Shown piece by piece: positions 2,584 to 14,766 of a stretch of 23,935 nt of DNA. Numbering within the stretch: position 1 is the first letter of the stretch; each line of letters opens with the position of its first letter. The notes beneath the pieces are model-generated. The model had not been told where the DNA came from, ran no database searches, and saw only the letters and a list, made by a program, of their open reading frames with translations. The DNA is from a virus: the IMG/VR virus record IMGVR_UViG_3300028025_002640, positions 1 through 23,935 of that record. The stretch is one strand, 5' to 3'. The position numbers were made by a program, and so were the translations under genes.

Positions 2584-3966
2584 ATGGCTGATACTTATAA
2601 TGACTATCCAAAGGCTGCAAGTGAGAATGCTAAACGCGCTTTAAAGTTTAGAGAGGAAACAGATAATAAGAATAACTGTGGCACTCCAGTCGGTTGGGCG
2701 AGAGCGAACCAATTAGCAAAAGGAGAAGGAATCTCAGCGGATACAGTTAAACGTATGGCATCATTCAATAGACATAGACAGAATAAGGATGTACCATATG
2801 AAGAGGGTTGTGGCGGTTTGATGTGGGATGCGTGGGGCGGTACTGAAGGTGTAGACTGGGCAATAAGAAAATCAGAACAAATAGACAAAGAAGCGGTAAA
2901 GAATATGACAGAAATAGACATAATCGGAGCGATAGACCAATATACAGAAGCTAATGCTCAAAGTTTAAAAGCTGAACTTGAAAACGCTAATGGCTTAGAT
3001 GTTACTTTTAATATTGCATCGGAAGGCGGTAGTTACTTTGAGGGTTTGACTATGGCGGCAATGATTAGTAGCTACAAAGGTAAGACTACGGCAAAGGGAA
3101 TCGGTATTGTTGCAAGTGCAGCAACTGTTGTTTTCTTAGCAGCGGATGAAAAGGTGCTAACATCTAATAGCTTTTTTATGATTCACTCAGCATGGTCTGG
3201 TGCTGAAGGTAACGCAAAGCAAATATCAAAGACTGTCGACTTGCTTAATAGAGTGGATGAACAAATGGTTAACATCTACACGGCTCAAATGGAAAGTAAA
3301 GGCAAGTTAATCAATAATAGTATTGAGGACACTAAAGCATATGTAAGAAATATGATGTCGGAAGAAACATGGTTAACGGCTGAAGAGGCTGTCGATTATG
3401 GATTCGCAGACTACATTATGGATGAAGCACAAATACCTGATTATAAAAGTTACGAGGCGGTATTTAATAAAGTACGCGCTGAATCTAAATTTAAAAACAT
3501 TCCTAAAATTAAAAACAGTATGAACGACAAAAAAAGTCTACTTCAAAACATCGCGTCTGTTTTTGGTTTCAAAGCTGAAATTGTCGAAGAGAAAGATATG
3601 ACAGTTATTGAAGAGCCAAAGGCGGAAGAGATGGAAATTGAAATCGAAAAAAGTTTTGACGATTACACTCCAGAAGAGAAAATCGAATACTTTAGAAAGA
3701 AAATAGCTGAACTTGAAGCTGAAAAAGAAGCAATGTCTACCGAAATGGCTACAATGAAAGAAAAGGTAAAATCTTTGGAGCATGGCATGAAAGAGAAAGA
3801 GGTAGTTATTGAGGAAAAAACTAAAGAAGTTGAAGAGGCTCAAGCTAAAGCATTTGCTAAAATTAGTTACAAATCTGAAAGCGCAGGAACATCTGTTAAG
3901 AATAAATTTACTCAAGACCAGATTATTCAGGCGTCTTCGTTTATCAAATCATTGTTAAATAAATAA
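2584..3966 (+). CDS. ClpP-like prohead protease with N-terminal extension and C-terminal scaffold-like domain
   Basis: Three parts are visible. Residues 1-95 form a conserved-looking domain (YNDYPKAASENAKRAL, GTPVGWARANQLAKGEGIS, EEGCGGLMWDAWGG) of the kind found in phage capsid-region proteins, role unknown. Residues about 110-300 are a ClpP/SppA-type serine protease: the oxyanion-side glycines in EGGSYFEG (147-154), likely nucleophile Ser178 in VASAAT, His201 in MIHSAW, and Asp249 as a candidate third residue by spacing. Residues about 313-460 are highly charged with a long coiled coil (360-425) and a hydrophobic C-terminal helix, like a capsid scaffold. This family processes the prohead during capsid maturation. 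It lies immediately upstream of the structural genes. ATG codon M313 (base 3520) could give a separate scaffold protein, as in lambda C/Nu3. Function is confident from the motifs; the domain arrangement beyond the protease is inferred. Confidence 0.85.
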   Translation: MADTYNDYPKAASENAKRALKFREETDNKNNCGTPVGWARANQLAKGEGISADTVKRMASFNRHRQNKDVPYEEGCGGLMWDAWGGTEGVDWAIRKSEQIDKEAVKNMTEIDIIGAIDQYTEANAQSLKAELENANGLDVTFNIASEGGSYFEGLTMAAMISSYKGKTTAKGIGIVASAATVVFLAADEKVLTSNSFFMIHSAWSGAEGNAKQISKTVDLLNRVDEQMVNIYTAQMESKGKLINNSIEDTKAYVRNMMSEETWLTAEEAVDYGFADYIMDEAQIPDYKSYEAVFNKVRAESKFKNIPKIKNSMNDKKSLLQNIASVFGFKAEIVEEKDMTVIEEPKAEEMEIEIEKSFDDYTPEEKIEYFRKKIAELEAEKEAMSTEMATMKEKVKSLEHGMKEKEVVIEEKTKEVEEAQAKAFAKISYKSESAGTSVKNKFTQDQIIQASSFIKSLLNK

Positions 3967-3977
3967 ACTCTAAAAAA

Positions 3978-4790
3978 ATGGCTTTTAATAAAGAAAACTT
4001 TTATGCAGAGGGAAATAGTCAAGAATTCTTCTTTACAAGAACTAACCCTTTAGCTAATCCTGCAAACGCTGAAATCCTAAAGATTGAAAAAAGCGGATGT
4101 TGTGGAACTGAATTACCATTAGTAGCTGAATACAGTTATAACGGTATGGGTCAAACTTTTGATATCGATTTTTCTTCTCCTACTTCTTCTATTGATTCAC
4201 GTTATGTGAAGGTAGTAGTAACTGATGGACAAGGAAATTTCGCTACTGCTGTTGGAACTGGTACTGTAGGTGATTTATCAGTAGATGTTTCTAACTTAGA
4301 TGTATCTGTTACATGGACTGTATCTGTAGTAATTGAGGTTAACGAAAATGCTTCTGTTAACTGCCCTTGTATGGTTGAGTATACATTCCCTTACTTATCA
4401 TTTGCAGGTACTGTTACTGTTGACACAACTACTCTTTACGCTGCGAGAATTGCCGCTTTTGAAGTTGATGGCACAACTGCAATTGCTGATGGTGGTTCTT
4501 ATGACTTAGGTACATTCCCTGATGGTGGTACTACTGAACCTTTCAGCGTAGTATTCAGAAATACTGGTGCTTCTGTTTTGACTATCAGTTCTGTGTCTTT
4601 TACAGCTGATGTACTTAGCTTTACTTTACCTGCTTTTGCTGGTGTTGTTTATCCTAACCAAACAGTAACTCTAAGTGGAACAGTTGATTCTTCTGGTGCA
4701 GCTGGAAGTTATGATGGTACAATTACTATCAATAGTGATGGTGTTAATGCTACAGCTTATAATATCACTATAGATTACACTTTAGCTTAA
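3978..4790 (+). CDS. Virion structural protein with C-terminal Ig-like (ASH/HYDIN-type) domain
   Basis: The protein has 270 residues, nearly all beta-strand in character with Thr/Ser/Val repeats. Residues about 171-268 fit an ASH/HYDIN-like immunoglobulin-fold module: a YDLGTF.DGG start, then FSVVFRNTGASVLTISSVSF, then PNQTVTLSGTVDSS and a closing YDGTITINSDG segment. The N-terminal half contains a CC pair (41-42) and CPC (129-131). Its position between the prohead protease and the major capsid protein suggests a head decoration or capsid-stabilising protein; Ig-like domains often decorate phage heads and tails. The start ATG lies 11 bases after the protease stop with an A-rich leader. T-rich, Thr/Gly-biased codon use resembles the highly expressed neighbours. 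A minor tail or fibre role cannot be excluded. Confidence 0.65.
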   Translation: MAFNKENFYAEGNSQEFFFTRTNPLANPANAEILKIEKSGCCGTELPLVAEYSYNGMGQTFDIDFSSPTSSIDSRYVKVVVTDGQGNFATAVGTGTVGDLSVDVSNLDVSVTWTVSVVIEVNENASVNCPCMVEYTFPYLSFAGTVTVDTTTLYAARIAAFEVDGTTAIADGGSYDLGTFPDGGTTEPFSVVFRNTGASVLTISSVSFTADVLSFTLPAFAGVVYPNQTVTLSGTVDSSGAAGSYDGTITINSDGVNATAYNITIDYTLA

Positions 4791-4823
4791 TTTAATTAAC
4801 TCTTAAAACTTAAAAATAATATT

Positions 4824-5813
4824 ATGGCTATATATGAAAACGGTCAGTTCAATATCAATTTGATTGGTGAGCAGGCTCAAGAACTTTTACTAAAACCAGT
4901 ATTCTTTGATGCTGAAGTTGATGAGATTTTTGATACTATGTTACTTGTTAACAAGAAGCAAAATATCGGTTATGTAGGTGCAATGGAAAATATCCTACAA
5001 TTAGGCGATGGTTGTGGTTGGACTCCAAAAGGTAGTATGTCTATCTTTGAAAGATGTATTGAAACTGAATTTGTAAAGGCAAATGTTGAACTTTGTTTTG
5101 ATGAATTTAAAGATACAGTTTACAAGCAATTGCTTAAAAAAGGAACTCAGATTGATAACCTTGAAGGTACAATCTTTATGGACTTATTGTTACTAAGAAT
5201 GCAACAAGCGGTTCGTAAACAAGCCCTACTTCTTTCTTTCTTTGGTGACAAGTCAAGTGCTAACAACGATGTCAATATCGTAGATGGTATGTGGTCTGTT
5301 TACATTCCTAACTTGGTTGCTCTTAACTTAGTACCTTATATCAACTCAAACTCTGGTGTTCCTTTGGGAGCTGGTGATGGTATTGACTTACTTCAAGCTG
5401 TTTGGGAAAATGCTTCTAACGTATTGAGTGCAGTTCCTGAAGCTGAAAAGGTGATGTTAGTTTCTGCTAACGTTTACAGACAATACTTAGTTGACCTACA
5501 AAACAACGGTATTTCTTCTAATATGCACTTAGAATTGTTAATGAACGGAACTTCCAGATTGACATTCAATGGTATCGAAGTTAAGCCAATGTACGATTGG
5601 CAAGGTTACGCTTCAGCTTATCAGGGAATCAATGATGCTAACTATGTACTTTACACTAAGAGAGACAACTTAGTTATGGGTACTGATGTTACTTCTCCAC
5701 TTAACCAAGTTCAGGCTTGGCAGGATTGGGAAACTGAAAAATTAAAAGCTAAAATCAAATTCTACTTAGGCTTCAACTATAAGCATAACGAATTGATTAC
5801 TGTAGCATACTAA
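4824..5813 (+). CDS. Major capsid protein
   Basis: The protein has 329 residues, a usual length for an HK97-fold capsid subunit without a long scaffold domain. The identification uses its place directly after the protease and decoration-like gene, its length, and a C-terminal half with capsid-like features: a helix at about 188-205 (DLLQAVWENASNVLSAVPEA), the strand KVMLVSANVYRQYL, the segment FNGIEVKPMYDW and the final AKIKFYLGFNYKH strand typical of the A domain. Gene order supports it strongly. A GC-rich hairpin follows 6 bases after the stop and may partly end transcription, raising capsid message over downstream genes. An encapsulin-like or other HK97-fold protein is unlikely in this context. 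Confidence 0.75.
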   Translation: MAIYENGQFNINLIGEQAQELLLKPVFFDAEVDEIFDTMLLVNKKQNIGYVGAMENILQLGDGCGWTPKGSMSIFERCIETEFVKANVELCFDEFKDTVYKQLLKKGTQIDNLEGTIFMDLLLLRMQQAVRKQALLLSFFGDKSSANNDVNIVDGMWSVYIPNLVALNLVPYINSNSGVPLGAGDGIDLLQAVWENASNVLSAVPEAEKVMLVSANVYRQYLVDLQNNGISSNMHLELLMNGTSRLTFNGIEVKPMYDWQGYASAYQGINDANYVLYTKRDNLVMGTDVTSPLNQVQAWQDWETEKLKAKIKFYLGFNYKHNELITVAY

Positions 5814-13749: not shown

Positions 13750-13780
13750 TTTGCACTATTGAAATAAAGCCTTATATTGC
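13750..13780 (+). promoter_or_regulatory. Weak candidate promoter for the structured leader RNA
   Basis: TTTG (13750-13753) and TATATTGC (13773-13780) are separated by exactly 19 bp. The second box matches TAnnTTTG at the TA and at two of the three T positions but not the final TG. Spacing is right, the -7 box is poor; transcription would start near 13785. Confidence 0.3.
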
Positions 13781-13784
13781 GGTA

Positions 13785-13914
13785 TAATTAGAAAAAACCT
13801 TATTGTTTTGGAGTAGAGACTAAAATAATAAGTTAGCATAAATTACCTTTTTAAGCCATTGCGACTTGGTGTATTCTCTACTACGCTAAGTTTTGCAGTG
13901 GCTAATTTTTTTTT
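13785..13914 (+). ncRNA. Structured RNA leader with terminator hairpin and candidate pseudoknot
   Basis: This 168-base gap (13747-13914) contains no gene. A hairpin is formed by 13854-13862 with 13895-13903 (9 bp, one G-U). It continues after a small internal loop as 13864-13872 with 13883-13891 (9 bp, two G-U). The apical loop (13873-13882) contains TCTCTACT (13875-13882), which is exactly complementary to AGTAGAGA at 13812-13819 upstream. The hairpin is followed by AA and nine T (13906-13914), then directly by the ATG of the replisome organizer. The sequence therefore looks like an intrinsic terminator or attenuator whose loop can pair upstream. It may be a leader controlling replication-gene expression or the 3' end of a ~130-nt ncRNA. 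The 5' end is inferred. Confidence 0.6.
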
Positions 13915-14766
13915 ATGAAAGAACAACCAAATTACTACGGTATACTACCTGCAAATGTAAGGTATGATAAGAACCTACCAGCAAACGCTAAACTACTTTA
14001 TTCTGAGATAACTGCATTGGCCCAAAAAGATGGATACTGTTATGCAAGTAATGGATACTTTGCAGAACTTTATGATGTATCTGATAGGTCTATTAGTGAA
14101 TGGATAAATAAACTGTCTCAAAACGGTTATATCGAGGTGCAATTAGTTAAGAATAATAGCGGTACATTTAGAAAATTATTTCTATCGGGTATGAAGAAAT
14201 CTTCTACCCCCCGTATGAAGAAATCTTCTACCCCGTATGAAGAAAACTTCTACCCAAAAGAATACTATAATAATAATAATACAAGTATATATAATAATAA
14301 AGAAGAATATAAAGAGATTTCTATTTCTGAAAATTTAGAATCAGTTGAGGATGTTAAGTATTATTTTGAGACCAGTCAGATATTAGAACTCCTTACAGAA
14401 AAAACCAAAGCAAAATATAAGATACCTAAGTCTAAATCTTTACTTTTGCGTTATGGTCCTTACAAGTTAATCAAAGAACGTTTAGAGGATGGCTCAACAC
14501 TGGAAGAATGTATCAAAGTTATTGAGTCAAAGTACAACGAATGGAAAAGTACTGAATTTATGAGATACTTAATTCCAGAAACCATATTCCGAAAATCAAA
14601 TTTTGAGAAGTATCTTACACAATCACAAATCCAAATCGAAAATAATTTATCACAAACACAAAAACCATTAATCGATGACAAAGGAAACTATGCCAACACA
14701 GATGCAGGTAGGGAACTCTTTATTTCTAACATTAGAAAACGTGCAGAAGAAACTTTCCGAAAGTAA
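13915..14766 (+). CDS. Phage replisome organizer (replication initiator) with winged-helix N-terminus
   Basis: The protein has 283 residues. Residues 1-90 look like the helix-turn-helix/winged-helix domain of phage replication initiators: YYGILPANVRYDKNLPANAK, LLYSEITALAQKDGYCYASN, FAELYDVSDRSISEWINKLS and QNGYIEVQL. A low-complexity linker (93-135) includes MKKSSTP repeats and Asn runs. Residues about 155-235 match the conserved phage C-terminal domain of replisome organizers: YGPYKLIKERLEDGSTLEEC, IKVIESKYNEWKSTEFMRYL and PETIFRKSNFEKYL. Related Gram-positive phage proteins bind repeats inside their own gene and recruit the host helicase. Here the linker-coding DNA carries three such repeats at 14189-14256 next to an AT-rich stretch. 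The ATG follows the leader T-tract directly. Confidence 0.75.
   Translation: MKEQPNYYGILPANVRYDKNLPANAKLLYSEITALAQKDGYCYASNGYFAELYDVSDRSISEWINKLSQNGYIEVQLVKNNSGTFRKLFLSGMKKSSTPRMKKSSTPYEENFYPKEYYNNNNTSIYNNKEEYKEISISENLESVEDVKYYFETSQILELLTEKTKAKYKIPKSKSLLLRYGPYKLIKERLEDGSTLEECIKVIESKYNEWKSTEFMRYLIPETIFRKSNFEKYLTQSQIQIENNLSQTQKPLIDDKGNYANTDAGRELFISNIRKRAEETFRK
14189..14256 (+). repeat. Three iteron-like repeats inside the replisome organizer gene (putative origin)
   Basis: Units start at 14189, 14213 and 14235 with the core GAAGAAATCTTCTACCCC (the third has GAAGAAAACTTCTACCC). Each contains the dyad GAAGA-AA-TCTTC, weaker in unit 3. Units 1 and 2 are 24 bases apart and in the same reading frame; units 2 and 3 are 22 bases apart, so unit 3 lies in another frame and encodes a different peptide. 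Confidence 0.7.
14263..14320 (+). other. AT-rich stretch next to the iterons (possible DNA unwinding region)
   Basis: About 58 bases of nearly pure A/T, including TAATAATAATAAT and TATATATAATAATAA, follow the three repeats within the coding sequence. Such a stretch next to initiator-binding iterons is the classical layout of a replication origin. Confidence 0.5.

Follow-up and report, generated by a model that had tools for sequence, protein, structure and literature searches.

RNA control of replication initiators is well known in plasmids, and to our knowledge few such systems, that of P4 among them, have been described in phages. Kissing-loop riboswitches (e.g. the purine riboswitch) form an intramolecular loop–loop contact within a leader that carries a terminator, and the phi29 pRNA, a phage RNA of another kind, is ~120 nt long. 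In P4, the replication genes are controlled by premature termination, and the leader RNA pairs with segments before and after it (PMC4825925); in the pT181 rep attenuators, loop–loop kissing takes place with an antisense RNA, and changes in the loop and upper stem create orthogonal variants (PMC3753616); and in phi29 pRNA, two complementary loops join molecules to one another (PMC7357161). The leader described here, which precedes a phage replication initiator gene, appears to work like a mixture of the P4 and pT181 systems and to be a member of neither: the lack of an Rfam match, of an established antisense partner and of a temperate context places it outside both classes. A search of openly licensed papers found no account of a terminator whose loop kisses a hairpin upstream of it, ahead of replication genes in phages.

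The window (the whole stretch of DNA analyzed, a virus record of 23,935 bases, with all evidence at the sequence level) carries tailed-phage genes for a protease, portal, Erf, endolysin, helicase and methylase, and its host is probably a member of the Bacteroidota, judging from relatives and from the promoter boxes. The replication initiator (Rep) matches PHROG 428, 'replication initiation protein' (1.6e-36), as well as the Pfam families HTH_36 (7.6e-15) and Phg_2220_C (1.3e-17), and the genes neighboring the leader belong to replication and recombination. The 165 bases before Rep hold, in order, promoter-like boxes, a first hairpin (HP1), a linker, a second hairpin (HP2) and a T9 tract (Table 1). 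The boxes were read against the −33/−7 consensus of the Bacteroidota-type promoter, and relatives show boxes at the equivalent place: TATTTTTG in L069, TATATTTG in L006 and L007, and TATCTTTG in the elemo phages. As an in-frame TAA (13903-13905) lies upstream of the Rep ATG at 13915, Rep starts at this position or later and none earlier, and polymerase arriving from upstream must therefore cross the terminator before rep; the gap between terminator and ATG is too small for a promoter. Placement of a terminator that must be passed before Rep fits an attenuator or leader RNA. Inside rep itself, three iteron-like direct repeats of TATGAAGAAATCTTCTACCCC (14189-14255, the last copy diverged) form a candidate replication origin.

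Table 1. Features of the replication leader and adjoining gene in the window.
Feature	Position	Strand	Basis
Bacteroidota-type promoter-like boxes (TTTG 13750-13753, 19-nt spacer, TATATTG 13773-13779)	13750..13779	+	consensus match only
Sigma-70-like alternative promoter, TTGAAA-18-TATAAT	13759..13788	+	11/12 consensus matches
HP1, 13-bp hairpin (13799-13811/13820-13832) with 8-nt loop	13799..13832	+	minimum-energy and centroid fold
HP1 loop AGTAGAGA, kissing partner 1	13812..13819	+	covaries with 13875-13882
AU-rich linker, 21 nt, HP1 to HP2	13833..13853	+	sequence read
HP2 terminator hairpin, ~20 pairs, ~−26 kcal/mol	13854..13903	+	fold
HP2 loop TCTCTACT, kissing partner 2	13875..13882	+	covaries with 13812-13819
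T9 tract, adjoining the Rep start codon	13906..13914	+	sequence read
Replication initiator gene (Rep; HTH_36 and Phg_2220_C)	13915..14766	+	profile matches

The RNA spanning 13785-13914 folds at −38.5 kcal/mol, compared with −21.2 ± 3.2 kcal/mol for shuffled sequences (z = −5.4; 0 of 200 shuffles were as good). The hairpin that the initial annotation had placed before the Rep ATG is recovered in this fold as HP2, and direct reading of the sequence confirms that the two complementary segments, the T9 tract and the ATG lie where they had been assigned. The annotation had further proposed a pseudoknot between the HP2 loop and an upstream strand; the pairing holds by compensation (see below), but the partner is not single-stranded, as 13812-13819 constitutes the whole apical loop of HP1. 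Because AGTAGAGA fills that loop, its contact with TCTCTACT is a loop–loop kiss between HP1 and HP2. Each 8-mer occurs exactly once in the window (0.78 and 0.24 occurrences expected per strand from base composition), making the kissing pair unique there. As in an intrinsic-terminator attenuator, the leader combines a stable hairpin with a T-tract set directly against the ATG. A generic terminator scan returned no terminators in the region and missed HP2, probably because this hairpin falls outside its rules, which call for a loop of 3-8 and a T-run 0-2 bases from the stem; we do not regard this as counter-evidence. The unit appears to be a complete promoter–RNA–terminator cassette that is widely found.

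The comparison of 13812-13819 with 13875-13882 in related phages, which had been named as the check, revealed double-sided changes, and the kiss is conserved by compensation independently in three families. In family A, four related leaders aligned in register show changes on both sides in 4 of the 8 loop–loop pairs; 31 of 32 cells are paired (96.9%), a value matched in 1 of 500 shuffles, and sliding the partner destroys the signal, giving far lower scores. Loops in relatives read AGTAGAAG/CTTCTACT (L002), AGGAGCAG/CTGCTCCT (L067, full length 11 nt) and GTAGGAG/CTCCTAC (L069). The stems, which include G-U pairs, are also maintained, with 95.7% of cells paired in HP1 and 92.3% in HP2, the latter including two compensatory pairs. 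Family B (~10 contigs) consists of near-identical leaders with loops of either GCCTATCAA/TTGATAGGC or AGCCTTCGAC/GTCGAAGGCT, and family C pairs ACTCGCACT with AGTGCGAGT in L131 and TACTAGCCCTA with TAGGGCTAGTA in L272; in both families the loops are the fastest-changing part, yet they stay matched. The HP1 sequences of L131 and L272 differ at 5 of 50 nt, and four of these five differences fall either within the kissing strand or within a second strand with which it can pair in HP1. HP1 in these two contigs (L131 3137-3185; L272 minus strand 1513-1560) can also pair with either of two 3′ segments, TACTGAA or ACTGAATAAGGC, and its inner strand and the kissing loop covary, hinting at a strand-exchange switch. 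Through this inner-strand pairing, the kissing strand of family C can be either exposed by a short hairpin or sequestered by a longer one, an arrangement suggestive of a switch.

Related loci, drawn by Rep similarity, were surveyed as 144 non-redundant regions of 460 nt that precede related Rep genes, with a detector that calls a hairpin with a T tail if its loop is complementary to that of another hairpin further upstream. Strict matches alone were used, as relaxed settings produced many AT-rich false matches. Nine of the 144 regions were positive and 135 negative, with thresholds set after the first examples had been seen and among homologues that share ancestry; dinucleotide shuffles gave 4 positives over 30 rounds (0.13 per round) and the minus strand gave none. 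The kiss is also more frequent than expected by chance: of 33 terminator-like hairpins upstream of Rep genes, 9 have a loop that kisses an upstream hairpin of their own region, whereas exchanging loops between regions yields 10 of 1056. Beyond the Rep regions, the strict detector found scattered matches only in 2.04 million strand-bases. The nine positives do not represent nine origins, since the window groups with L005 and L145 with L150, and L006 is distantly related to family A; they reduce to ~6-7 groups, of which one (L136) is GC-rich. The family A covariance model recovers family A and L006 (35.9 bits) and no other family, so the groups share an architecture rather than one alignable sequence. 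The predicted loop duplexes span −8.4 to −17.2 kcal/mol, and HP1 is weak in L007 and L119 (−2.7 and −2.4 kcal/mol, respectively). One further candidate kissing pair, TGTGAAC/GTTCACA in L013, was rejected because its complementarity is lost in homologues.

Most Rep homologues, and most of the cultivated phages checked, do not carry the element. No convincing example was found in cultivated phages with a related Rep from Bacteroides, Alistipes, Parabacteroides, Fusobacterium, Ruminococcus, Butyrivibrio, Cellulophaga, Enterococcus or Lactobacillus, and in bacterial genomes prophage Rep homologues are present and the leader absent. A pattern search with the HP2 arms returned known relatives and chance matches only. 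DNA similarity searches of the leader against known phages gave nothing for the window, L119, L131 or L136, and for L145 a single 59-nt match that lies outside the leader. No Rfam family, those of the P4 CI/C4-type antisense RNAs included, matches the leader at gathering score, the best weak match being LhrC (E = 2.7), and nothing is convincing by E-value.

Where it occurs, the leader sits consistently at the head of the replication module, with various Rep types behind it. In family B the conserved stretch begins exactly at the −7 box and stops at the start codon, and some members bear no relation to one another on either side of it; downstream lies a variable small ORF, which is followed in some cases by an HTH_36 Rep and in others by a distinct 243-aa protein that is weakly related to phage replication initiators. 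Likewise, the L131 and L272 leaders precede two different HTH_36 proteins. The T-tract touches the Rep ATG in the window and in L002. At three loci the first gene is not rep, being an MT-A70 methylase (L002), an HNH gene (L067) or a GIY-YIG gene (L069), and these genes, in L002 the methylase with a companion, sit between leader and rep. L002 has two leaders, with loops that differ between them and match within each. Its inserted module (3329-5218) comprises the methylase (383 aa, with a ParB-like N part) and the companion gene, possibly a restriction enzyme, and has a kissing leader of its own with the different loops GTCTTCAC/GTGAAGAC. In L067, the protein encoded at 4187-5092 shares 93% identity with the window Rep in its C-terminal part and has an unrelated N-terminal domain, an instance of initiator domain swapping.

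The element is also present in cultivated phages of Flavobacterium, namely elemoE/F and elemoA, which infect Flavobacterium sp. BAL314. These phages have a common upstream region, including the TATCTTTG box, whereas their leaders differ (GTGGAGG/CCTCCAC in elemoE/F versus TGAGAGC/GCTCTCA in elemoA), as do their replication proteins. L007 has its upstream region in common with the elemo phages and carries the loops CCACTAC/GTAGTGG; a third CCACTAC, the HP1 loop sequence, lies between its terminator and start codon (L007 5992-5998), where it would be part of the read-through RNA only and could mask the start. A further conserved leader-like RNA was observed in L010, L013, L021, L028, L032, L043, L054 and ~15 other contigs (e.g. 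L013 1900-2060), with the TATCTTTG box, a GGGTTGTGCC hairpin and a CAAGAGTGGGrTGTT...AACATCTCACTTTTG hairpin; it precedes an ORF often starting with MKKYGK and, for L010, has no Rfam match at gathering score.

Set against the described systems, the leader resembles the P4 CI RNA and its seqA–seqB–seqC segments in being an untranslated phage replication-operon leader with short complementary segments and premature termination as the control point. It differs in that the P4 RNA is processed, serves in lysogeny and pairs with copies on either side of it, whereas the present partners are both loops within one RNA of two hairpins, which ends in an intrinsic terminator and has no Rfam match; of the A-B-C arrangement, A-B is present in all members and C in L007 only. 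In the pT181 type, too, the Rep gene lies behind a leader terminator and loop–loop kissing decides termination, but the loop pairs with an antisense RNA encoded on the other strand, whereas here its partner is a loop of the same sense RNA; a search for an antisense promoter gave a 9/12 minus-strand promoter-like match at 13854-13825 amid high background. The likeness to phi29 pRNA, a phage RNA of similar length with two mutually complementary loops, is offset by differences in position and architecture, the pRNA pairing by 4 nt between molecules and serving DNA packaging; the leader has no Rfam match to it, and its neighbors in the window are replication and recombination genes. Kissing-loop riboswitches share the intramolecular loop–loop contact in a leader with a terminator, but have a conserved aptamer sequence that is absent here, where the loops change as long as they remain matched and the terminator's own loop is the partner. 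The closest functional analogues would be the P4 CI RNA and the pT181-type rep attenuators.

We consider it reasonably likely that 13750-13914 is a self-contained promoter/HP1/HP2-terminator leader that gates transcription into the replication module. RNA polymerase would start ~10-20 nt before HP1 and synthesize HP1 and then HP2; many transcripts would end in the T-tract, yielding an RNA of ~110-125 nt, and those that read through would express Rep. During HP2 synthesis, the HP1 loop would capture the HP2 loop, and the kiss would set how easily the terminator hairpin closes and hence the amount of Rep. The favored direction, among the least certain parts of this scheme, is that the kiss delays closure and promotes readthrough. 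A released leader RNA, with both of its loops, may then bind to leaders of the same phage while these are being made, so that termination is restored; this step in trans is likewise among the least certain, and as the loops diverge in matched pairs each leader would recognize only itself. When the nascent RNA is folded as far as the HP2 loop, most members show a long-range loop–loop helix before the 3′ arm of HP2 exists, and pseudoknot-free folding of the nascent RNA found no mutually exclusive antiterminator hairpin that sequesters the terminator arms. The attenuator or leader-RNA function put forward initially is partly supported by the compensated pairing, the position at the head of the replication module and the terminator before Rep; no classical antiterminator fold was found.

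The geometry of the complex bears on whether the kiss forms within one molecule. At 2.8 Å per base pair and ~6.5 Å per linker nucleotide, we estimate from these general values that a stacked HP1–kiss–HP2 rod in the window measures ~110 Å, a distance that the 21-nt linker spans; the linkers of L002b, L119 and L145/L150 (5-12 nt) are tight for a fully stacked complex in cis. These lengths imply that the kiss may compete with full HP2 closure in cis, or be satisfied between molecules. The favored reading is accordingly an attenuator in which the kiss would set termination, possibly with self-recognition in trans. More tentatively, the leader could represent a new class of phage regulatory RNA: one sense RNA with two complementary loops, of which one belongs to the terminator, would serve as its own matching antisense, an orthogonal identity tag that travels with the replication protein and by which each replication module senses and limits its own copies in infection and coinfection.

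A related explanation, possible if rather doubtful, is that the terminated leader acts mainly in trans, like the P4 CI RNA or a plasmid counter-transcript, shutting off the replication genes of genomes of the same type for copy control or superinfection exclusion, with the matched loops as a self/non-self tag. The loops of families B and C, changing fastest and remaining matched, would suit such a tag, as would the leaders that differ together with the replication protein at one locus between elemoA, elemoE/F and L007, the short linkers of some members, and the third loop copy in L007, which gives an A-B-C order like that of P4 seqA-seqB-seqC (PMC4825925). That copy is confined to L007, however, and the intramolecular kiss should compete strongly with pairing in trans. 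Moreover, the records searched, which include ones of 31-60 kb and 99 kb, yielded neither a tyrosine integrase nor a serine recombinase (PF00589 and PF00239 were both absent), so P4-type lysogenic immunity is unlikely, although several of these records are fragments. We judge it unlikely that the leader is instead a stand-alone phage small RNA, with HP2 as a 3′ end that insulates it from rep; its loops would then bind host targets or promote multimerization in the manner of phi29 pRNA, and Rep would be expressed through read-through of unrelated upstream transcription. The complete promoter–RNA–terminator unit, the conservation of the family B leader ahead of a variable next gene, and a length of ~120 nt, like that of phi29 pRNA, together with two loops complementary to each other, which pRNA also has (PMC7357161), agree with this idea; the constant place at the head of the replication module, the contact of T-tract and Rep ATG in the window and L002, the strand-specific enrichment beside Rep and the missing Rfam match at gathering score argue against it.

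An element acting as DNA, in which a protein binds the inverted 8-mers as half-sites or they belong to a replication origin, is very improbable: the adjoining initiator gene and the iteron-like repeats inside it (14189-14255) could be read this way, but each family has the 8-mers in the apical loops of a pair of hairpins, the G-U pairs of the stems would be mismatches in DNA, the T-tract is present on one strand only and the sequences are wholly different between phages. Strong terminators are common between phage modules, yet the idea that HP2 is an ordinary terminator with loop complementarity by chance can be given almost no credence, as it is contradicted by the compensatory changes, the enrichment and the loop-swap controls.

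The kissing leader looks like a widespread, undescribed RNA switch on phage replication that recurs in unrelated phages. A compensated leader recurring before different Rep types, probably in hosts from more than one phylum, would amount to a control point of general reach that has so far been overlooked; its occurrence in cultivated Flavobacterium phages makes it directly testable, and the matched loops would constitute a natural library of orthogonal attenuator parts.
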